Source of the DNA: an uncultured Lysobacterales bacterium
GTDB taxonomy: Bacteria > Pseudomonadota > Gammaproteobacteria > Xanthomonadales > SZUA-36
Length of the DNA: 32,962 nt
Direction of reading: 5' to 3'
Assembly (NCBI GenBank): GCA_937927755.1
Contig: CALBDB010000158.1
Location: forward strand, 1-32,962
Positions 2,433-13,695 of this stretch are shown here, one piece after another. Within the stretch, counting starts at the first letter, position 1; each line of letters begins with the position of its first letter. Both the position numbers and the translations under genes were made by a program. The notes under the pieces are model-generated. The model did no database searches and had not been told where the DNA came from. It worked only from the letters and a program-made list of their open reading frames with translations.

Positions 2433-2460
2433 AAAAAACCCGCTATTTAGCGGGTTTTTT
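2433..2460. terminator. Bidirectional intrinsic terminator after rpmG and the hydantoinase gene
   Basis: A perfect 7-bp stem, CCCGCTA (2439-2445) with TAGCGGG (2448-2454), is flanked by six A on the left and at least six T on the right. It therefore works in both directions. It lies between the rpmG stop and the stop of the convergent hydantoinase-like gene, whose TAA overlaps the T-tract edge. Confidence 0.93.
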
Positions 2461-4436
2461 TATGCCTGCAATAACAAATTTCCCCATTCATCCGGTGTTG
2501 CCACCCAGCCAGGTTTGACCCATGCGGTGGCTGCGGACTCGACAATCAGCAAAGGACCGTCCAATGACAAGCCTGCCTGTAGGCCAGCCCGTTGGTTTAA
2601 TGGTACTTCCTTTGATAGTTCAGGCATTAAAACTCTCTCTCCATCTTTAAGGCCCGTGTGTTCCTGCCTGATATCAATCGACTGCAGCACTGCCGGTGCA
2701 CGGGCACTCAAGCGTATGTTTACCAGCTCTATCGGATGCGGCAGGCGTAAGCCGCTGGCTTTTTCGTGCGCCGCGTGAAAACCTGCTTCGTGCTCACCCC
2801 CGGCAGACCAGTCAATTCCGATGGCCGCGCTCTGGCCAAGGTAGCGAAGCTCAAGCCGGCGTCTGAACTTTACACTCCCCGGAGTACAACCCTCGGCCGT
2901 CAGCTGTGACAGCGCGTCCTTTTCGAGGCTGCGGAACCAGGATGCAATTTCTGTATCTGCCAGTTCGGCCAGCGGTCTCAGCACCGGCCTGGATGTCTCG
3001 CGGCCGGGTTCGCTGACCAGCATTCCCATCGCCGAAAGCACACCGGAGCGCGCGGGGATGATTATGCGTCTCATATCCAGCAATTCAGCCAGGTCACAGG
3101 CATGCAGACCACCGGCGCCGCCAAAACAGAGCAGTGCATAATCAGCCGGATCATGGCCGCGCTCAACGGAGATGACCCGCAAAGCCCGGGCCATGTGCTC
3201 GTTGGCCAGTCGCACGATACCCGAAGCCGCGTCCAGTACATCACAACCCATCTTCACCGCCAGTTCTGCAACGGCCTGCTCCGCTTTGCCCATAACCAGT
3301 GGCAGGTATCCACCCAGCAGTGTGTTCCCGGGTATTCGGCCAAGCAACAGGTTGGCATCGGTCACCGTTGCCTGCGTGCCACCCTGTCCATAACAGGCCG
3401 GTCCCGGGCTCGCCCCCGCGGATTGGGGGCCAACCAACAACATACCTGCCCGGTCCACCCTGGCGATTGAACCGCCACCGGCGCCGATGGTATGTATATC
3501 CACCGAGGGGATCGAGAGAGGCCATGCACCGATCCTGCACTGGCCGGTCAACGGAATTTCACCGTTCAGCAGCGCCACATCGGTTGATGTGCCACCCATG
3601 TCAAAGCTCATCAGTCTCGGGTTACCCGTCTGCGCCGCAATGCTGCGTGCTGCTGCCAGGCCTCCTGCCGGGCCGGACAACAATAATCGTACCGCCTGGT
3701 ACGCAGCCTGGTCTGCGGCAATGGTTGTCCCGGCGCTTTGCATCACGGCGATTCCCGCTTTTGGTAAACGGCTTTGCAAGCGCCCCAGGTAGCGGGAAAT
3801 CACCGGACCCACACTGGCGTTCAGCCAGGTGGCCATACCCCTTTCGTACTCCCGGACCTCGGGCAGAATTTCACTGGAGCAGGACACAAACCACCGGTCT
3901 TCCAGTTCTTCCGCAATGCGCTTTTCTTCCTGCGGCCGCAGGAATGAAAACAGCAGGTTGATCGCCACTGACTCAATGTCTAGCTCGTCCAGCCGGCCCT
4001 TGATTTGCTCAAGTTCATCATCGCTGATCGATTCCAGCAATTCACCATCTGCGGAAATACGAGTTGGAACCTCAACACACAACTCCCGGGGTACCGGCGG
4101 GCTGACTTCAGGCTGCTGAAGCTGATAGACCTGTTCCCGCTCCTGGCGGCCGAGCGTCAGCACATCGGCAAAACCACGTGATGTCACGTAGGCAACACGC
4201 ACGCCTTTACCCTCGAGTACGGCATTGGTACCTACCGTGGTGCCGTGAATTATCTGCAGGGCCCGGTCTTTAAGCCCAAGCCGGTTCAATCCCTCGACGA
4301 TGGGCCCGGATGGATCGGCCGGGTCTGACAGCACCTTGCAGTGCCGAATTGTGCCGGCATTCGGACTACGCTCCATCACCACGATATCGGTAAATGTACC
4401 GCCCGTATCAATGCCGACCAGTGTAATATCTTCCAT
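2460..4436 (-). CDS. Hydantoinase A / 5-oxoprolinase-like ATPase subunit
   Basis: HyuA-type protein, about 658 aa from the ATG at 4436. An actin-like ATPase opening (GIDTGGTFTDIV) starts within ten residues of this Met, then come HGTTVGTNAVLEGKG, SGPAGG, FDMGGTSTDVAL, IGAGGGSIA and CFGGAGG, all typical of the family. Such enzymes cleave 5-oxoproline, hydantoins or N-methylhydantoin with ATP, normally with a HyuB partner. No hyuB is in the window, so substrate and partner are unknown. In-frame ATGs at 4481 and 4526 would lengthen it by 15 or 30 residues; the longest would overlap the divergent mutM start, and the extension (IVNQPVVASAS) is not family-like. It sits on the opposite strand between rpmG and mutM, which are usually close together, suggesting an insertion. 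Confidence 0.88.
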   Translation of the reverse strand: MEDITLVGIDTGGTFTDIVVMERSPNAGTIRHCKVLSDPADPSGPIVEGLNRLGLKDRALQIIHGTTVGTNAVLEGKGVRVAYVTSRGFADVLTLGRQEREQVYQLQQPEVSPPVPRELCVEVPTRISADGELLESISDDELEQIKGRLDELDIESVAINLLFSFLRPQEEKRIAEELEDRWFVSCSSEILPEVREYERGMATWLNASVGPVISRYLGRLQSRLPKAGIAVMQSAGTTIAADQAAYQAVRLLLSGPAGGLAAARSIAAQTGNPRLMSFDMGGTSTDVALLNGEIPLTGQCRIGAWPLSIPSVDIHTIGAGGGSIARVDRAGMLLVGPQSAGASPGPACYGQGGTQATVTDANLLLGRIPGNTLLGGYLPLVMGKAEQAVAELAVKMGCDVLDAASGIVRLANEHMARALRVISVERGHDPADYALLCFGGAGGLHACDLAELLDMRRIIIPARSGVLSAMGMLVSEPGRETSRPVLRPLAELADTEIASWFRSLEKDALSQLTAEGCTPGSVKFRRRLELRYLGQSAAIGIDWSAGGEHEAGFHAAHEKASGLRLPHPIELVNIRLSARAPAVLQSIDIRQEHTGLKDGERVLMPELSKEVPLNQRAGLQAGLSLDGPLLIVESAATAWVKPGWVATPDEWGNLLLQA

Positions 4437-4498
4437 GGATGCAGATGCTACCACCGGCTGATTTACAATGTCGGCTGACATAAAGGTTTCAACAAAAA

Positions 4499-5311
4499 AT
4501 GCCCGAATTACCAGAAGTCGAAACAACGCTCAGGGGGATAGAGCCACACCTGCTCAAGCAGCGTATTGCGCAAGTAACTGTGCGCGATTCCAGGTTGCGC
4601 TGGCCGGTGCCTTCTGCGGTCGCAAAGGCCGAGGGTCAGCAGCTGATCAACCTTAGGCGGCGCGGCAAATACCTGCTGCTCGAACTGGAACAAGGCGGCC
4701 TGATCATACACCTGGGCATGTCCGGCTCACTGCGTATCCTGGATTCGCCAGTAAGCCCCGCCAAACATGACCATGTCGACATCATACTGAAGAGCGGCGC
4801 TTGTCTGCGCTTTAACGACCCCCGCCGCTTTGGCGCATTTCTGTGGGTGGACGGTATGATGGAAGACCACGTATTGCTACGTGATCTCGGTCCGGAACCT
4901 CTGTCCGGTGAATTCACCGCAGACTACCTGCACGGCGCATCGCGGGGGCGCAAGGTAGCCATCAAGAATTTCATTATGAATGGCCACATCGTTGTGGGTG
5001 TCGGCAACATTTATGCCTCGGAAGCATTGTTCATGGCCGGCATCCATCCATTACGCGCCGCCGGCCGGATTTCCAGGCAACGTTATGCGGCACTAGTTGA
5101 TGCCATCCGCGACGTTTTGGCCCGCGCCATCCGGCAGGGAGGAACCACCTTGAGGGATTTTGTGAGTTCAGACGGCGCACCAGGCTATTTCGCCCAGGAA
5201 CTGCTGGTATACGACCGGGCCGGCCTCGATTGTTTCCAGTGTGGGGCCCCTGTCCGCCAGAAAGTAATCGGCCAGCGGTCGAGTTATTACTGCACCACCT
5301 GCCAGCGGTAG
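4499..5311 (+). CDS. mutM: Formamidopyrimidine-DNA glycosylase (Fpg)
   Basis: Fpg/MutM of 270 aa, a bifunctional glycosylase/AP lyase removing 8-oxoguanine and formamidopyrimidines. It begins MPELPEVE, so Pro2 is the catalytic nucleophile, with Glu3 and Glu6 conserved. Also visible are HLGMSGSLR, the FNDPRRFG loop, VVGVGNIYASEALF (the helix-two-turn-helix) and a C-terminal zinc finger with Cys245, Cys248, Cys265 and Cys268. The start is fixed by the required MPELPE. AAAGG at 4482-4486 is a distant ribosome site. Length is standard. It shares an intergenic space of at most about 60 bases with the divergent hydantoinase-like gene. Confidence 0.98.
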   Translation: MPELPEVETTLRGIEPHLLKQRIAQVTVRDSRLRWPVPSAVAKAEGQQLINLRRRGKYLLLELEQGGLIIHLGMSGSLRILDSPVSPAKHDHVDIILKSGACLRFNDPRRFGAFLWVDGMMEDHVLLRDLGPEPLSGEFTADYLHGASRGRKVAIKNFIMNGHIVVGVGNIYASEALFMAGIHPLRAAGRISRQRYAALVDAIRDVLARAIRQGGTTLRDFVSSDGAPGYFAQELLVYDRAGLDCFQCGAPVRQKVIGQRSSYYCTTCQR

Positions 5312-5960: not shown

Positions 5961-6629
5961 CTATAGCAGGCCTTCGTCTTCCTGCTCTGGACCAAGGCTA
6001 TCTCCATCCGTAGCTTCGCTTTCTACCGGCTCGATAAACTTGATCCGGCGGCCACCGATAAACACATTTTTGAACTCGGCCCGGCTGACCGAAACGTATC
6101 TTTCGTTGCCGCCGATTTCCACCTGGGCGCCTTCTTTCAGGGCATAGCCTTCTTCATCGACCCGCACCACCATGTTGGCTTTTCGTCCCGTGTGACAAAT
6201 GGTTTTGATTTCGGAAAGCTCATCGGCCCAGGCCAGCAGGTATTTGCTGCCCTCGAACAGCTCACCCTGGAAATCGGTTCGTAAGCCGAAACACAGTACC
6301 GGTATATTCAGGCGATCAACAATTTCAGTTAACTGGAAAACCTGATCACGGTTTAAAAACTGTGACTCGTCTACCAGCACGCAATGGATGTTGTTGTCTT
6401 CCAGTTGTGCCCGGGTTATTTCAAACAGGTCGTCTTCGGTCGTGAACATCGTCGCCTTGGACTGCAGGCCTATACGAGACTTGATCCAGCCTTCCCCGTA
6501 ACGGTCATCCAGTTTTGGAGTAAACAACATCGGGGTCAGGCCGCGCTCACGGTAATTGTGTGCGGATTGCAGCAAAATCGTGGTTTTGCCGGCATTCATT
6601 GACGAGTAATTGAAAAAGAGTTTTGCCAT
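5961..6629 (-). CDS. tdk: Thymidine kinase (type II, TK1-like)
   Basis: Thymidine kinase of 222 aa, phosphorylating thymidine to dTMP for pyrimidine salvage. Visible are the P-loop region SSMNAGKTT (9-17), the Walker B-like [10 protein letters not shown] with catalytic Glu88, the [15 protein letters not shown] segment and the lasso-loop end [10 protein letters not shown]. The usual zinc-binding cysteines are incomplete. Relatives commonly read CHCGRKA and YVSVCRKHY here; this protein has CHTGRKA (Cys145, Thr147) and [10 protein letters not shown] Glu/Asp-rich tail of about 20 residues follows the conserved core, longer than the roughly 200-aa family norm. The gene starts 22 bases after the stop of the CphA-like Mur ligase, probably in one operon. 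Confidence 0.95.
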
Positions 6630-6651: not shown

Positions 6652-8349
6652 TTACTTATCAGCCACAAATTCACGGACCAGTGCCAGCAGTTCATCACGT
6701 TGGGTAAGGGCGAGTAACACCAGGCAATCGCCGGGCTTTGCTTCCGCCAGGGCCTTTTTGACGCCTTCAACGGGGCTTGCAAGCTCCGTGACCGTATCCC
6801 TGGGGACACCTGCATCAATCGCGAACGCTGTTATCAAACCGGGAACTTCGCCGGCCTCGCGTCCACGCTCATATCCCGGCAGTTCGCATACCAGCAGACG
6901 GTCGGGATTCAATCCACAAGCCGCCGCTACAAATTCACCGAGTTCCTTATCCGCTCGGTCGCCAGCCTGCCCCATTAAAACGATGTGCCGCCTGGCCTGA
7001 AATGCTTTGATGGTCTCACTGACGGCCTTGATACCGTGCTCATTGTGGGCAAAATCGAGGAAAATCCGGATGCCGTTCTTTTCAAACAGGTTACCGCGAC
7101 CGGGGTTTTCATCAGCATCGCCGCTGAAGCTTTCGAGCCCCTTGGCCAGTGCCTCATCGGAAGCGCCCAGTACATGACACAAGGCCATGGCGGCCAGGGC
7201 GTTACTGATGTTGTATCGCGCTATACCACCAAAGGTGACCGGGATTTTTGCAGCTTCTACGATATTTCGTGTGCCAATGTTCGTCGCCAGCACAAGCCAA
7301 CCGTCAGAAAGGTAGGCGGCCTCTCCCTGTTTTTCCAGGTGCGTTTCTAAAACCCGATTGTCTTGATCCAGCCCGAACCAGATGATCCTGTTGGAAAGTG
7401 TCGCTGCCATGCGGACACTCTCGGGGTCGTCGGCATTCAATATCAGCGGTGCGTTCGCACCAAGCGCACGGCGTACGATGAACTTGGCCTCAGCCATTTC
7501 AGACACCGAATTGATACCGTAATCGCCCAGGTGATCGGCTGCGATATTGGTAATCAGGGCACCGTCCGCATGTTCCACACCGATGCCGCGCCGCAGCAAA
7601 CCGCCGCGGGCAACTTCCAGCACCACTGCTTCGGATTTCGGGTGACGCAGAAGTGTGCGCGCACCACCGGGGCCGGAGTAATCACCATGGTCGAGGATTT
7701 CTTCGCCGACACGTATGTAATCCGTGGAGGTGATACCGGCGCGCAGACCGTCTGCTGCCAAAATGGCCGATGCCAGCCTGACCGTCGTTGATTTGCCGTT
7801 GGTGCCAGTCACGATACCCAGCGGAATTGAACCCACCTGCTGCCAGTTAATGGTCTCCGGCTCGGGAACAGCCGACGCCGGCCAGACTATGGCCGATTTT
7901 CCAAAACCAACGGAGGCTTCGTCATCATCCCAGAGAAAGGGCACATGGTTGTCTTGGGCTGCACGCTGCATTGCCAGCAGGGCCGTGTTCTGTTCTTCAG
8001 CCCGTTGGGCAACCAGTTTGGTTATTGCATCATCGAAACTCGGCAACGGTTCGCCGGCCAGTCGCGCGGCAACCCTGTTCAAGGCGACTTCATTGAGCTC
8101 ACATGCGGTGTATAAAACATCGATAGGCGCATTGATCACCAGGCTGGCACCGCCCGAAAATACCCGCCAGCAAATGTTTTCCGCACGCCAGCCCATGGCC
8201 TCCATCAGACGGCCGGTCTCTTCGGCCCAGGCTGATGTGACCCTTTCCGTGGAAACGCCATCAATGGCAATATCCAGCACTGCGCCCGGCATGTCCCAGA
8301 ACAGATTGGGGCCGGTCAGCCGGCGGTTGTCCAGCAATTTAATACTCAT
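6652..8349 (-). CDS. CphA-like Mur ligase lacking the ATP-grasp domain
   Basis: Protein of 565 aa. Residues about 175-565 are a Mur-ligase unit closely similar to the CphA encoded just upstream. It has the P-loop GTNGKSTT (182-189), then ITSTD, GDYSGPGGA, VVLEVARGGLLRRG, NIAADHLGDYGI, a GRGNLF segment and LDFAHNEHG. The first about 160 residues resemble the CphA N domain in outline, but the HxxEH motif of this window's CphA is replaced (DVLYTACELNEVAL), and the whole ATP-grasp domain is missing. In CphA the Mur-like domain attaches Arg to the Asp side chain, so an ATP-dependent amide ligase acting on cyanophycin or a related acidic peptide is my inference; substrate unknown. It begins 9 bases after the cphA stop. 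Confidence 0.88.
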   Translation of the reverse strand: MSIKLLDNRRLTGPNLFWDMPGAVLDIAIDGVSTERVTSAWAEETGRLMEAMGWRAENICWRVFSGGASLVINAPIDVLYTACELNEVALNRVAARLAGEPLPSFDDAITKLVAQRAEEQNTALLAMQRAAQDNHVPFLWDDDEASVGFGKSAIVWPASAVPEPETINWQQVGSIPLGIVTGTNGKSTTVRLASAILAADGLRAGITSTDYIRVGEEILDHGDYSGPGGARTLLRHPKSEAVVLEVARGGLLRRGIGVEHADGALITNIAADHLGDYGINSVSEMAEAKFIVRRALGANAPLILNADDPESVRMAATLSNRIIWFGLDQDNRVLETHLEKQGEAAYLSDGWLVLATNIGTRNIVEAAKIPVTFGGIARYNISNALAAMALCHVLGASDEALAKGLESFSGDADENPGRGNLFEKNGIRIFLDFAHNEHGIKAVSETIKAFQARRHIVLMGQAGDRADKELGEFVAAACGLNPDRLLVCELPGYERGREAGEVPGLITAFAIDAGVPRDTVTELASPVEGVKKALAEAKPGDCLVLLALTQRDELLALVREFVADK

Positions 8350-8358
8350 GCTGATGCT

Positions 8359-11166
8359 TCAGTCGCTTTCTTCTTCGTCCCTGGCAAGACGCACACCGCG
8401 CTCATCCCGGACCAGTCGCGCACCGGGGTCCAGCGAAAACGCATCCGGATCTTCCTCAACAAAACTCTGTGCAGCTTTTGATTCATCAGAAGCACCGACA
8501 GCCGCACTGTCACCTTCATAATGAATCACCTGGTTCCAGCTGCGCCGCACATCATCGGCAAACAAGACCACCAGGTCGCCGTCCTGTGCCATGTCGAGTG
8601 CTTTGTCGACAGAAAGTACTTCATCCGGCACCACTTCAATGGCGCTCGCCTCTACGCCATTGACCAGTAACTGGTCACGCAGCATGTCCGGCACTTCAGA
8701 TTGGCCACGCCCGCGACGGCGGTCATCGGCCCTGCAAATATAGTGATCGAAATGGCCGCTTGCTTCATCGGCGATCGCCCGGATATCTTCATCCCGGCGG
8801 TCGCCCGGCGCGGAGAGAACACAGATTCGGCGCCCGGCAACCTCGAGCCGGTCAACTAACTGGCAGATACTGTGGATCGCTGCGGCATTGTGGCCATAGT
8901 CCAGGATGACCCTGAACGGGTGCTCATCGAACACGTTCATGCGGCCCGGCGCCTGGAAAATTGTTGAGCTGAATGAACGCAGGCCATGACGGATATCGTC
9001 CAGTGATTTGCCCATCGAATAAGCCAATGCTGCAGCAAACATTGCATTCTGGACGTTGTGGGTTGCCTTGCCATCCATCGTAGCCGGTATCTGGTGGGTC
9101 CAGACCAACTGGGAATGGGTGCCATTGTCGTACAGGGTAATCATATCGCCATTAAAGCCCTGTTCAAGCACCATCGCCCTGCCGCCGGCGTTTACGTGTT
9201 CTTTCACCAGGGCGTGGGCCGGGTTCATGGTTACGTAACAGACGTGCTCGGCCTCGGTGTAATCCGCCATCTTCAGACAAAGATCATCATCGGCGTTCAG
9301 CACAGCGGTATCACGGGCTACTTCGATAACGATGCGCTTGAGCTCTGCCAGTTGTTCCAGCGTGTCAATACCCTTCAGCCCAAGATGGTCTGCGGCAACA
9401 TTCAAACAGGCCGAGACGTCGCAACGCCGATAACCCAAACCCGAACGCAGCAATCCGCCACGGGCCGTTTCCAACACGGCGACATCCACTGTCGGGTCAC
9501 GTAAAACAATATGTGCCGAGGTCGGCCCTGTCATATCACCTTTGACCGACAAACGCCCATCGATATAGACACCATCCGTGGATGTCATACCCACCGTGTG
9601 CCCGGCTGTTTTCAGGATATGGGACAACATACGTGAGGTCGTGGTTTTGCCGTTTGTGCCGGTGATGCTGGCCACCGGTATACGGGTCGGTGTTCCGGGC
9701 GGGAACAGCATATCCATTACTTTTCCGGCCACGTCTCGTGGTTCGCCTTCGGACGGAGCCACGTGCATCCGGAATCCGGGCGCCGCGTTGACCTCAACAA
9801 TAGCGCCACCCACTTCTTTGTAAGACTCGGTGATGTCCGAGGTCAGAAAATCCACTCCGCCTACGTCCAGGCCCACAGCGCGGATCGCCCGCACAGCCAT
9901 TTCACGGTTATCCGGATGCACCACATCAGTCAGATCAATGGCGGTGCCGCCGGTCGACAGGTTGGCAGTTTTGCGCAGATAGAATATCTCGCCATCCGGC
10001 AAAACCGAATCCGCATCGAGACCTGCCATTTCCAGTAGTTCAAAGGCTGGCCGGTCGAGTTCAAGCCTGGTCAGCACCTTCTCATGGCCTATCCCGCGGC
10101 GGGGGTCTTCGTTGACTTTGTCGACCAACTCCGTAACCGTACTTTTCCCATCACCGACAATGTGGCCAGGGACCCGCTTGGCAACCGCCACCAGCTCGTT
10201 ATTGACCACCAGCATACGGTGGTCAAAACCTTCCACGTAGCTTTCAACCAGCACCGCCCTGCTACTGCCGTGCTCGCGGGCAAAGACAAATGCACTCGCG
10301 ACCTGCTCATCACTGGTCAGGTTGATAGAAACACCCCGGCCGTGATTGGCATTGAGTGGCTTGAGGACCACCGGAAAACCAATACTGTGGGCCGCGCGAA
10401 TCGATGCGCGCTCGTTGTAGATCATCCTTTGAGTTGGCACCGGAAGTCCGAGATCACGCAACAGGTTGTGCGTGTCTTCCTTGTCACAGGATATTTCCAC
10501 GGCTATATGCGGAGTCTTACTGGTAATCGTGGCCTGTATACGTTGCTGGTAAGCACCATGTCCAAACTGCACCAGCGAATACTTGTTGAGCCTCATGTAA
10601 GGGATTGCCCTTTCTTCTGCCGCGTTTACCAATGATGCGGTACTGGGGCCCAGCTCCTTGCGTTGTGCAAACAGGATAAAGTCGTCGCGCTCCTGTTCAA
10701 AATTGAAATCTTTTTCGATTTCATCGGAAAATTCCTGCTCCAGGTTTTCCGGCAGCAGGCTCAGCAGCAGTTGCAGCGCGATACGTGCGGCCTCCAGCCC
10801 TACATCACGCTGCTTGTACTGAAACACCATGTTGTACTCACCCACCACGCCTGTGCCACGGGTGCGGCCGAATGATACATCCGAGCCCGCCTCGTTTTGC
10901 AGTTCCAGGGCCGCGTGCTCCCAAACGTGGGCCATCCAGGTGCCTTCGTCTTCACGCATGCGGCGGATAAACCCACCCTCTTCACCATAAGAACAGCCGT
11001 GGTTCTGCAAACCCGGCAAGGCTTCGATCAAGCCATCAATAAAGGCATTACCAAGCCGTGCTGTCGGCCACTCTTCGAGGACACCGAGATCCACCTGGTG
11101 CCGGATAACCGGAAAATGCGCGTACAGGCTCGGGCCGACGTAAACGTTTGTGGAGAGAATTTTCAT
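8359..11166 (-). CDS. cphA: Cyanophycin synthetase
   Basis: CphA of 935 aa, building multi-L-arginyl-poly-L-aspartate, a nitrogen and carbon reserve, with ATP. There are three modules. The N domain (1 to about 165) carries HVWEH (80-84). The ATP-grasp domain (about 215-475) has GFPVVLKPLNANHGRGVS, VESYVEGFDHR and the metal site IVEVNAAPGF; it adds Asp to the backbone. The Mur-ligase domain (about 495-870) has P-loop GTNGKTTT (503-510), ARGGLLRSGLG, AADHLG and DYGHN; it adds Arg to the side chain. A tail of about 55 residues, rich in Asp and Glu, follows. ATG at 11166 has AAGGT upstream. Flanked by cyanophycinase and a second Mur ligase. Length and architecture are typical of proteobacterial CphA. 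Confidence 0.97.
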   Translation of the reverse strand: MKILSTNVYVGPSLYAHFPVIRHQVDLGVLEEWPTARLGNAFIDGLIEALPGLQNHGCSYGEEGGFIRRMREDEGTWMAHVWEHAALELQNEAGSDVSFGRTRGTGVVGEYNMVFQYKQRDVGLEAARIALQLLLSLLPENLEQEFSDEIEKDFNFEQERDDFILFAQRKELGPSTASLVNAAEERAIPYMRLNKYSLVQFGHGAYQQRIQATITSKTPHIAVEISCDKEDTHNLLRDLGLPVPTQRMIYNERASIRAAHSIGFPVVLKPLNANHGRGVSINLTSDEQVASAFVFAREHGSSRAVLVESYVEGFDHRMLVVNNELVAVAKRVPGHIVGDGKSTVTELVDKVNEDPRRGIGHEKVLTRLELDRPAFELLEMAGLDADSVLPDGEIFYLRKTANLSTGGTAIDLTDVVHPDNREMAVRAIRAVGLDVGGVDFLTSDITESYKEVGGAIVEVNAAPGFRMHVAPSEGEPRDVAGKVMDMLFPPGTPTRIPVASITGTNGKTTTSRMLSHILKTAGHTVGMTSTDGVYIDGRLSVKGDMTGPTSAHIVLRDPTVDVAVLETARGGLLRSGLGYRRCDVSACLNVAADHLGLKGIDTLEQLAELKRIVIEVARDTAVLNADDDLCLKMADYTEAEHVCYVTMNPAHALVKEHVNAGGRAMVLEQGFNGDMITLYDNGTHSQLVWTHQIPATMDGKATHNVQNAMFAAALAYSMGKSLDDIRHGLRSFSSTIFQAPGRMNVFDEHPFRVILDYGHNAAAIHSICQLVDRLEVAGRRICVLSAPGDRRDEDIRAIADEASGHFDHYICRADDRRRGRGQSEVPDMLRDQLLVNGVEASAIEVVPDEVLSVDKALDMAQDGDLVVLFADDVRRSWNQVIHYEGDSAAVGASDESKAAQSFVEEDPDAFSLDPGARLVRDERGVRLARDEEESD

Positions 11167-11256: not shown

Positions 11257-12075
11257 TCATTTCAATGATGCTTCGCGGGTTTCAAGATTGAAATGCGAAC
11301 CGTGCGCCAGTACGTGAAGTTTCAATCCAATCAGCGAAACAGCTTCAGCCTTGCGTACATAACTCATCGATGAATGCCGCAAATCAGCCGGATCCACCAC
11401 TGTAACGGTACCGTGACCGACAACTTCCAGGACGCCATCAGGTGCTATAAACGCCGCGGTATTTTCATCAATACCCAGGCCGCAGGCAAAAGGGTTGAAT
11501 GACAGTGCCGCGAGCAAACGTCCTAGGCGCCCACGCTTGTTAAAGTGCTGGTCTATAATGGCGCGATTGGTCAGGCCAAGTCCGGGCGCCAGCACCACAC
11601 CACTTTCGCGTGGCGATGGACCGCCCCTCCCGCCCGCGATCATGTGTTCGGAAACAATAGCAGCACCAGCTGAAGTGCCTGCCATGTGAACCCCTTCTGA
11701 GTTCAGCCTGCGTATCGCGCGGGCCACCGGCGTTCCGCCCAGTATCGTGCTCAGACGCAACTGGTTTCCGCCGGTTATAAAGATACCGCTGGCTCTTTCA
11801 AGGGTGTCGAGAATCTTATCCTGGTAACAATCGTCGCGTTGTTCGATCGGTATACACATCGCCCTGGCGCCCATACCTTCAAACAACTCCTGGTACAGGG
11901 GGCCAGTTTCATCCAGCAGCGATGCCGTTGGAATGACCAGTATGCGGGCATCATCGCCACCGCATAAATCTACGAAACGCTCCAGGATTACGGGGTCTTT
12001 GCGTTTCGCCTCCGCTCCTCCAATGGGAACAACAAAACCTCGGTTCTGGCCTTGGGCAGGTGTAGCTGGGCTCAT
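11257..12075 (-). CDS. cphB: Cyanophycinase
   Basis: Cyanophycinase of 272 aa, a serine peptidase of the S51-like fold that cuts cyanophycin to beta-Asp-Arg dipeptides. The nucleophile elbow GTSAGAA (Ser135) is clear, along with FITGGNQLRL (99-108), the IIDQHFNKRGRLGRL segment with His177 and GIDENTA (201-207). It lacks a signal peptide, so it acts in the cytoplasm on stored granules. ATG at 12075 has AAGGT about 9 bases upstream. First gene of the probable cphB-cphA-Mur ligase-tdk transcript, with 90 bases to cphA. The dipeptide would need an isoaspartyl dipeptidase, not present in the window. Confidence 0.94.
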   Translation of the reverse strand: MSPATPAQGQNRGFVVPIGGAEAKRKDPVILERFVDLCGGDDARILVIPTASLLDETGPLYQELFEGMGARAMCIPIEQRDDCYQDKILDTLERASGIFITGGNQLRLSTILGGTPVARAIRRLNSEGVHMAGTSAGAAIVSEHMIAGGRGGPSPRESGVVLAPGLGLTNRAIIDQHFNKRGRLGRLLAALSFNPFACGLGIDENTAAFIAPDGVLEVVGHGTVTVVDPADLRHSSMSYVRKAEAVSLIGLKLHVLAHGSHFNLETREASLK

Positions 12076-12132: not shown

Positions 12133-12210
12133 ATGCAAACATCATTTTATTTGCACAAAACATGCTGAAAACATTGCCAAAACGCTGAGACTGACCCGGC
12201 TAATTGCGGG

Positions 12211-12216
12211 TATAAT
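12211..12216 (+). promoter_or_regulatory. Candidate -10 element for ppa
   Basis: A consensus TATAAT lies 27 bases upstream of the ppa ATG. No good -35 hexamer is found at 16-18 bases (CTGACC at 12191 is too close), so either an activator or a weak -35 must be assumed. Confidence 0.45.
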
Positions 12217-12242
12217 GCCTGGTCACCAGAAGAGGAATTATC

Positions 12243-12791
12243 ATGAGCCTGCAACAGGTCCCGGCCGGAAGAAATTTGCCGGACGACATTAATGTCATCA
12301 TCGAAGTCCCGATGAACAGCCCGGCCATTAAATATGAGGTTGACAAGGACTCCGGCGCAATTTTTGTCGACCGGATGCTGAAGACCGCCATGTACTATCC
12401 CTGCAACTATGGTTATATCCCACATACACTGTGTGGTGATGGCGACCCGCTCGACGTCCTGGTTGTCCTGCCCCTGCCCATGTTGCCGGGCACCGTGGTG
12501 CGCTGCCGGCCGGTAGGGGTGCTGCAAATGAAGGATGAGTCGGGTGAAGATTCCAAGATCATCGCTGTCCCCGTTTCCGAAGTTACCGGTATTTACAGGG
12601 ATGTCGTGTCCGTTGAAGATCTCGACGATCTTTTGATCGACCAGGTCGAACATTTTTTTGAACACTACAAGGATCTTGAACGTAACAAGTGGGTAAGAAC
12701 CGGTGACTGGAAAGGAGTTGACGTTGCCCGCAAGGAAGTTCTTGATGCCGTTGCCCTCTACGAAGCAACTCCCGACAAGCCCAACTTCTAA
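12243..12791 (+). CDS. ppa: Inorganic pyrophosphatase (family I, soluble)
   Basis: Family I pyrophosphatase of 182 aa, hydrolysing PPi to two phosphates in the cytoplasm. The signature DGDPLDVLV (66-74) with three metal-binding aspartates is present, together with YPCNYGYIPHT, KYEVDKDSG, ARPVGVL-like (CRPVGVLQM) and HYKDLE...KWV. The ribosome site AGAGGA lies about 8 bases before the ATG. It is monocistronic, facing the acyltransferase-like gene 16 bases after its stop, with no terminator hairpin that I can see between them. Notable because the window also encodes a membrane pyrophosphatase and a PPi-dependent phosphofructokinase, which use the same PPi that this enzyme would waste. Confidence 0.97.
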   Translation: MSLQQVPAGRNLPDDINVIIEVPMNSPAIKYEVDKDSGAIFVDRMLKTAMYYPCNYGYIPHTLCGDGDPLDVLVVLPLPMLPGTVVRCRPVGVLQMKDESGEDSKIIAVPVSEVTGIYRDVVSVEDLDDLLIDQVEHFFEHYKDLERNKWVRTGDWKGVDVARKEVLDAVALYEATPDKPNF

Positions 12792-12807: not shown

Positions 12808-13689
12808 TCACCTGAAAAACTGCTGGGCGGCTTGCCAGATTCGCCATTGGGCGGGATCCATTAACAGGTGACGGCTCAGGAAATCTGCGTAGTTCTGTAA
12901 GAACTCCTGCGCCTCACCGGTGCTGAACGGGCCCTCGAGTTCCAGCTTCTTTTTTACCGTGTCGCCCGGCTGAAGACTGATCGCGTAGAAAACAAATTCC
13001 TTTTCCTTTTCTGCAAGAATGCCCGGAAAGCCTGCATTAAAAATGGCGTTCCTGCCAAGAACCTGGCTATCCATCGTCGGGCGTCCTGCCATCGGGGGCG
13101 CGTCCATTACTACTATGACGCTGCCTTCCTGGTCCATCATAGTCCTCAACACTTTACCGGCACCGCCGACCGGTACTGCCCGTTCACCCATGGTTTTCAC
13201 CATGTAGCGGGCCGCCATTTTGCTGAAAAAATAGTAGAACGGCCGGATTTGCAGTATTTCCCTTTCCGGTGGCCGGTACGGCAACGCCGGGTCGAGACCC
13301 GCCTCCCGCAATAACCTGAGAATGGAAACGGATGGCCCCCAGTGCATGCCGATGATGACACGGTCCTTTGCGAGCTCAACGCTGGTGTCGCATTCTACTT
13401 CTGAAAGCACGGTCTGGGCGCGGCCAAACAGCATCATGTACAGGTCGCGCACATCAAGCAATTCCACCTGCTTCCAGCGTCTCTTGAAAACCGCTTCATC
13501 CTCAATTTCAACAAAGTCACGGGCGCCCTGGTAGGCGGCCTCAGCGGCCGCCGCCATGAACCATCGCCAGCAAGATGTCCTGTATACAATCGAATGGGAT
13601 ACTGATGCCGGCAGAAGCACTGCCAATCCGGGGATCAGCAGGTAAGTAAAAAGATCAGACAGTTGTTGAGATATCTTCGTCGCGCTCAT
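12808..13689 (-). CDS. Lipid A biosynthesis acyltransferase-like protein (LpxL/HtrB superfamily), acid residue missing
   Basis: Protein of 293 aa from the ATG at 13689; a GTG at 13692 would add one residue. The layout fits the LpxL/HtrB-like group: an N-terminal hydrophobic helix (about 12-35), an RVIIGMHWGPS strand-turn, then YRPPERE, a VPVGG turn and GSVIVVMDAPPMAG. The catalytic motif is normally H-x4-D/E, but here His116 is followed by WGPS and then Val121. It may therefore be inactive, use another acid, or do a different job. These enzymes transfer acyl chains at the inner membrane. It starts within a few bases of the prmA stop and is the distal gene of that operon. Family assignment is moderate and the specific substrate unknown. 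Confidence 0.6.
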   Translation of the reverse strand: MSATKISQQLSDLFTYLLIPGLAVLLPASVSHSIVYRTSCWRWFMAAAAEAAYQGARDFVEIEDEAVFKRRWKQVELLDVRDLYMMLFGRAQTVLSEVECDTSVELAKDRVIIGMHWGPSVSILRLLREAGLDPALPYRPPEREILQIRPFYYFFSKMAARYMVKTMGERAVPVGGAGKVLRTMMDQEGSVIVVMDAPPMAGRPTMDSQVLGRNAIFNAGFPGILAEKEKEFVFYAISLQPGDTVKKKLELEGPFSTGEAQEFLQNYADFLSRHLLMDPAQWRIWQAAQQFFR

Positions 13690-13695
13690 CACCCA

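Follow-up and report, generated by a model that had tools for sequence, protein, structure and literature searches.

MurX, a CphA-Derived Mur-Type Ligase Encoded Beside Cyanophycin Synthetase, Is a Candidate Third Component of Cyanophycin Metabolism

The Locus

A cyanophycin operon lies on the minus strand of the window, that is, the whole 32,962-nucleotide stretch of DNA analyzed here, which comes from an uncultured Lysobacterales bacterium. Specifically, the order on the minus strand is cphB, cphA, a gene encoding a protein that we call MurX, and a gene for thymidine kinase (Table 1). MurX is a working name for a 565-residue, CphA-derived, Mur-type ligase. The plus-strand frame over the same interval is riddled with stops, and the 565-residue frame runs on the minus strand, beginning after a gap of exactly 9 bases (8358-8350) from cphA. 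The original prediction, made from the letters of this DNA, had described the reading frame and its distance from cphA correctly while omitting the strand, and the motifs that it listed (ITSTD, ARGGLLR, AADHLG, and D-x-x-HN, the last as DFAHN) are all found in MurX. The thymidine kinase probably lies outside MurX function.

Table 1. Features of the cyanophycin operon, in minus-strand order, with the predicted domains of MurX
Feature	Positions	Strand	Description
cphB, cyanophycinase	11257..12075	-	272 aa; leads the conserved trio
cphA, complete cyanophycin synthetase	8359..11166	-	935 aa; HxxEH (N domain), ATP-grasp, and Mur domains intact
CphA C-terminal tail, residues 918-935	8362..8415	-	LVRDERGVRLARDEEESD; conserved in CphAs of MurX-bearing genomes; ends in Asp
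MurX, Mur-type ligase without ATP-grasp	6652..8349	-	565 aa; from ORF, domain search, alignment, and AlphaFold model
MurX residues 1-100, diverged CphA N domain	8050..8349	-	no HxxEH peptidase site; RRLTGPNL conserved
MurX residues 117-157, remnant of the CphA segment entering ATP-grasp	7879..8001	-	FLWDDDEASVGFGK, aligned with SLVQFGHG of CphA
MurX residues 176-410, Mur ligase core	7120..7824	-	P-loop GTNGK, STD, ARGGLLR, ADH, K289, NADD
MurX residues 411-565, Mur ligase lid	6655..7119	-	NPGR, DFAHN, GDR, and RGR kept; R791, D814, and D871 of CphA lost
Thymidine kinase	5961..6629	-	22 bases downstream of MurX; adjoins in 14 related loci

Other genes in the window deserve mention. A minus-strand ORF at 2460-4526 encodes a hydantoinase/oxoprolinase family protein (688 aa) with a partial match to caprolactamase alpha, and it overlaps the start of mutM on the opposite strand. 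Two further minus-strand ORFs, upstream of cphB at 12147-12665 and 12808-13692, have no Pfam or NCBIfam match; in nine loci, a member of one 293-residue family is encoded within a few genes of the operon, on its upstream side.

Domain Composition and Fold

Pfam identifies two domains in MurX, Mur_ligase_M and Mur_ligase_C, at 74.6 and 53 bits against curated cut-offs of 24 and 28.4, which places the protein in the Mur ligase superfamily. Pfam finds no match in MurX to ATP-grasp or to the CphA N domain (PF18921). The best-matching family model for 54 of 54 MurX homologs is TIGR02068 (cyanophycin synthetase), each time as a partial match; in MurX itself, this model scores 350 bits against a cut-off of 850 and aligns over profile positions 475-858 only. 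Homologs are all 545-585 residues long, and the HxxEH motif is absent from all 54 that are full length. Thus, the domain searches and the homologs agree with the original prediction that MurX possesses neither ATP-grasp nor HxxEH.

An AlphaFold model of MurX, computed from an alignment of 54 MurX sequences, has a pLDDT of 94.8 and a pTM of 0.93. Its best PDB matches are full-length CphA1 structures, with TM scores of 0.85-0.86 of the query and both end domains covered. Specifically, SuCphA1 (7lgj; 869 residues) gives 0.85 of the query over 873 alignment columns and TeCphA1 (7wae) gives 0.86, versus about 0.55 for MurE. A profile alignment of the N part of MurX with that of CphA is colinear, pairing GPNLF with GPSLY and SVGFGK with SLVQFGHG, and its global E value of 1.4e-4 is weak by itself. 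Because the best folds are those of full-length CphA, the N part of MurX appears to be the CphA N domain, positioned relative to the M domain as it is in CphA. Thus, MurX is predicted, from alignment and model, to be the N and M domains of CphA without the intervening ATP-grasp (G) domain or the N-domain peptidase site. The derivation from CphA that was originally proposed is upheld. The original description of a short N region leading directly to the P-loop needs amendment: the N part is indeed short, but it corresponds to a diverged CphA N domain together with the segment that precedes ATP-grasp.

Relation to Known Ligases

MurX shares with CphA1 (SuCphA1 7LG5/7LGJ/7LGQ and TeCphA1 7WAE; TIGR02068) the arrangement of an N domain and a Mur-type M domain, as well as the M-domain catalytic residues. 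It differs in having no G domain, no HxxEH, an altered lid, and the low TIGR02068 score given above. CphA2, a cyanobacterial enzyme whose working site is the G site, is likewise a CphA derivative minus one of the two ligase activities. MurX, having lost G and kept M, is roughly the reverse of CphA2, and ATP-grasp, which serves CphA2 as the sole polymerizing site, is absent from it. As in MurX, the N-domain peptidase motif is absent from CphA2 (PMC9262961), which repolymerizes beta-Asp-Arg dipeptides with one active site (PMC10206079). MurX is therefore neither CphA1, as it has no G domain, nor CphA2, as the opposite domain is kept.

The core and lid fold, the ATP site, and the catalytic residues are also common to MurX, MurE, and other Mur ligases, but the N-terminal domain of MurX is that of CphA, not the UDP-binding one. 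MurX scores 96 bits with the MurE model TIGR01085, whose cut-off is 257, and a separate MurE-like ORF with the DNPR motif exists in the window's genome. Together, the score, the N domain, and the separate ORF rule out that MurX is the cell-wall MurE. MurX falls in no characterized ligase family, an outcome on which the original prediction had depended.

Other CphA-like proteins came to light. A second CphA-like protein in Betaproteobacteria (720-780 aa) is, like MurX, a CphA paralog that adjoins cphA. Its construction is the opposite: it keeps N and G, ends before the M lid, and accompanies another CphA clade. At seven loci (L074, L093, L095, L096, L097, L100, and L103), such a protein, with HxxEH and ATP-grasp retained, is encoded directly upstream of a cphA of another type, the product of which has no HxxEH. 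Thus, at these loci, the jobs appear to be split between two proteins. Yet another CphA-like family, of 767-784 residues, is encoded on the minus strand at L086:1453-3753 and L087:1426-3777, both in one Lysobacterales metagenome-assembled genome (G663). Each combines an N domain with an ATP-grasp that is degenerate and greatly reduced in length; the Mur module is complete, with THHAGIM or AHHRGMA in place of ARGGLLR. They are possibly a further derived ligase.

Distribution and Pairing with cphA

A search of 84,980 genomes, from a species-level collection, yielded 60 loci homologous to MurX, a recurrence far beyond chance. In nearly all of those with enough contig, cphA lies directly upstream on the same strand; cphB usually precedes it, and an amidohydrolase resembling isoaspartyl dipeptidase stands before cphB in 33 loci. 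Three MurX loci have no cphA nearby (L022, L035, and L051), and in each of these genomes another contig encodes a CphA of the same clade. The neighbors at these three loci point to no other pathway, and we rejected the idea that MurX serves one there.

Genome surveys give the same picture. Of the 274 Gammaproteobacterial genomes examined, a TIGR02068 match above the cut-off occurs in 13 and MurX in six, where it adjoins cphA every time. MurX is present in five of 398 Pseudomonadota genomes, the window's included, always adjoining a CphA of the same clade. Two more MurX genomes came from a third sample, both with MurX paired with cphA, and in that sample all eight genomes with a CphA of the clade also have MurX. 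Overall, cphA is adjacent in 12 of the 12 MurX genomes surveyed. The original prediction would have lost its footing had relatives lacked linkage to cphA; the linkage is conserved.

The association is confined to one CphA clade, which spans Gamma- and Alphaproteobacteria, Myxococcota, SAR324, and Hydrogenedentota. Among the CphAs of this clade that could be checked, every one has MurX in the same genome. Identity to the window's CphA is about 60% or higher for CphAs accompanied by MurX and at most 48% for plasmid CphAs without it. MurX was not found at 18 fetched loci with other CphAs (35-45% identical). The sampling for MurX covers CphAs on either side of the 50-60% identity range, to which the Acinetobacter and Tatumella types belong; CphA of the Acinetobacter type, which probably marks where the clade ends, was looked for and is absent from the sampled genomes. 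This pairing with a single CphA clade, like the CphA tail described below, goes beyond what the original prediction saw.

MurX forms a single clade with support of 100/99 in an 81-row tree, and its pairwise distances track those of the partner CphA (r = 0.952; 47 operons; 0/2000 permutations). The mean distance is 0.55 for MurX versus 0.32 for CphA; thus, MurX is the faster evolving, a pattern that would be compatible with a looser and less essential role as well. Part of the association could stem from shared ancestry, given that one clade is marked by both MurX and the CphA type.

The trio of cphB, cphA, and MurX also occurs on four plasmid records: two from Ruegeria, one from Shinella zoogloeoides, and one from an unverified "Roseateles." RefSeq annotates these plasmid copies of MurX as "Mur ligase family protein." Cultured carriers of MurX include Marinicella and Paraglaciecola in addition to Ruegeria and Shinella. 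The Ruegeria trio (L088 and L091, about 2.0-4.7 kb) adjoins saccharopine dehydrogenase-type and aldehyde dehydrogenase genes, neighbors that may point to lysine metabolism. Next to the Shinella trio (L089, about 1.0-4.8 kb) are genes for a Tn3 family transposase and a recombinase, suggesting that the trio moves as a cassette. Variants of the arrangement exist as well. Three small, near-complete genomes of about 2.0-2.1 Mb (L068, L069, and L106) have cphA and MurX with no adjoining cphB; their MurX proteins are the most diverged found (32% identical), and the aligned L068 copy is without the last Arg of RGR. Finally, the cphA at L024:3727-5990 looks broken by internal stops while the adjoining MurX is open, possibly through sequencing error or recent loss.

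A Conserved Asp-Ending Tail on the Partner CphA

In MurX-bearing genomes, CphA carries a C-terminal tail with a terminal Asp, a feature that is new in the present analysis. The tail follows a variable linker and has the pattern L-I-x-D-E-R-G-V-R-L-A-R-x(n)-E-x-[SAGND]-D. It is recognizable in 72 of 72 CphAs from such genomes, with Asp as the last residue in all 72 and Glu as the fourth-last in 69; two further MurX genomes also fit the pattern. CphAs without MurX, those beside cphB included, have no such tail, and CphA-MurX pairs without an adjoining cphB (L068 and L069) retain it. Thus, the tail goes with MurX and not with cphB. In the CphAs of Acinetobacter and Tatumella, a match to the tail is weak or undetectable.

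Across 47 genes, the six-residue motif of the tail appears in 43 different DNA encodings; Asp is specified by either of its two codons, and genomes with MurX on another contig still have the tail. The tail is therefore conserved at the protein level, and the same observations rule out that it is a mere ribosome-binding site for murX. In an AlphaFold model of an in-frame read-through comprising the tail and MurX, the tail is predicted to form a hairpin (pLDDT about 54-68), an outcome that speaks neither for nor against docking; the terminal Asp is blocked in this construct. Because a polymer must present a bare C-terminal Asp to the M domain of CphA (PMC9427784), an Asp-ending CphA tail could be a substrate of, or a dock for, MurX.

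Catalytic Residues and the Altered Lid

Among the CphA M domains used, 80 alignment columns are universal, and 49 of these, the catalytic ones included, are kept in at least 90% of MurX sequences. The catalytic residues are invariant or nearly so in 54-61 homologs: the P-loop, the Mg-ligand Glu, the DH pair, K289, NPGR, the His of DFAHN, GDR, and RGR are all retained. Mutation of the DH pair inactivates the SuCphA1 M domain (PMC9262961). Equivalents of K499, R731, and H748, the TeCphA1 M-domain residues taken for comparison (PMC9427784), are also kept. In seven close pairs, pN/pS of MurX is 0.17-0.29, indicating purifying selection. Judged by its residues, MurX is an active-looking ligase, not a relic.

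The lid has diverged at specific positions. R791 is present in 70 of 70 CphAs versus at most two of 61 MurX proteins, an acid at D814 in 70 of 70 versus 12 of 61, and an acid at D871 in 69 of 69 versus none of 61. A profile alignment with the MurE ORF of the same genome puts D814 and D871 at or beside the DNPR motif and GKG glycines of MurE, positions that we take to be contacts for the incoming diaminopimelate in E. coli MurE. Because the acids at these amino acid-binding positions have changed, Arg is doubtful as the MurX substrate, and homology with MurE suggests that the incoming amino acid differs from Arg or is not Arg alone. The loss of these lid acids supports the original suggestion that MurX may add a different amino acid. 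In the core, MurX fixes R254, T267, and, nearly, R231, where CphA is variable or has another residue. A "DDD motif" thought to be universal in CphA was rejected as the lost Arg site: in a larger CphA set, only its first acid (D814) is universal.

Proposed Function

We favor, with moderate confidence, the idea that MurX is an active accessory ligase that acts on an Asp-terminated acceptor in the cyanophycin metabolism of one CphA clade. The notion is that the N domain and M core of MurX would hold the acceptor, MurX would phosphorylate the free Asp carboxylate with ATP, and the activated Asp would be joined to the amino group of an incoming amino acid, much as the CphA M domain adds Arg. Given that an intact M domain is already available in the partner CphA, MurX presumably must do something extra. 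The acceptor would most likely be the end of an unfinished cyanophycin chain, and the CphA's own Asp-ending tail could be an alternative acceptor or docking site. A more specific proposal, which we regard as doubtful, is that MurX ligates an amino acid onto the C-terminal Asp of the tail (DERGVR...E-x-x-D-COOH), which would mimic a bare cyanophycin chain end. If true, the tail would become a protein-bound primer or anchor, and the polymer could be begun on or tethered to the synthetase, comparable to glycogen on glycogenin.

Could MurX instead supply a second M activity, adding Arg (or Lys) to Asp residues left bare by CphA and so finishing or repairing the polymer? Its fold and catalytic residues are those of the Arg-adding M domain, it retains the Arg residues equivalent to R790 and RGR, and it shares an operon with cphA. 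We nonetheless consider this possibility unlikely, given that MurX no longer has the acids retained by CphA at the predicted amino acid site and that an intact M domain already exists in the partner CphA. Alternatively, MurX could be a non-catalytic partner that binds cyanophycin or CphA, perhaps via the tail, to regulate or scaffold, with its ATP site acting as a sensor. The one-to-one relation with a single CphA clade, the conservation of the CphA tail in the same genomes, and the retention of an N domain minus its peptidase site are all compatible with such a role, which we judge improbable: a scaffold has no need for the catalytic residues that are kept in 54-61 sequences.

The original prediction also raised the possibility that MurX primes the polymer, for instance by making soluble primers or dipeptides (such as beta-Asp-X) that CphA then polymerizes. 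Coupling of Asp to an amino acid is conceivable for an M-type ligase on its own, and the operon context is compatible. However, in CphA, the N-domain site makes primers by cleavage (PMC9262961), and all 48 full-length partner CphAs keep this C..HxxEH site; priming by MurX in place of CphA is thus disfavored. In addition, the CphA M domain requires a chain with a bare Asp end (PMC9427784), and we hold priming to be very improbable. Lastly, despite its missing domain and faster evolution, MurX has next to no chance of being a decaying duplicate of the M domain retained by chance beside cphA, a reading ruled out by its selection and conservation: an ORF kept across five or more phyla-level groups, the pN/pS values, a single old origin, and invariant catalytic residues.

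Significance

Cyanophycin is a nitrogen-storage polymer, and its metabolism as described comprises a synthetase, a cyanophycinase, and dipeptidases. We found no description of MurX in the open-access papers searched, a scope that leaves priority uncertain; within those papers, the original statement that no function is established for this arrangement holds. MurX, conserved beside CphA, looks like an overlooked third component of the pathway. A conserved third gene implies that something extra is done to the polymer or to the synthetase, be it another side chain, a cap, repair, or a protein-primed start, and MurX may therefore be relevant to biopolymer engineering. MurX and CphA2 would represent two opposite domain subtractions from one polymerase, open to comparison.
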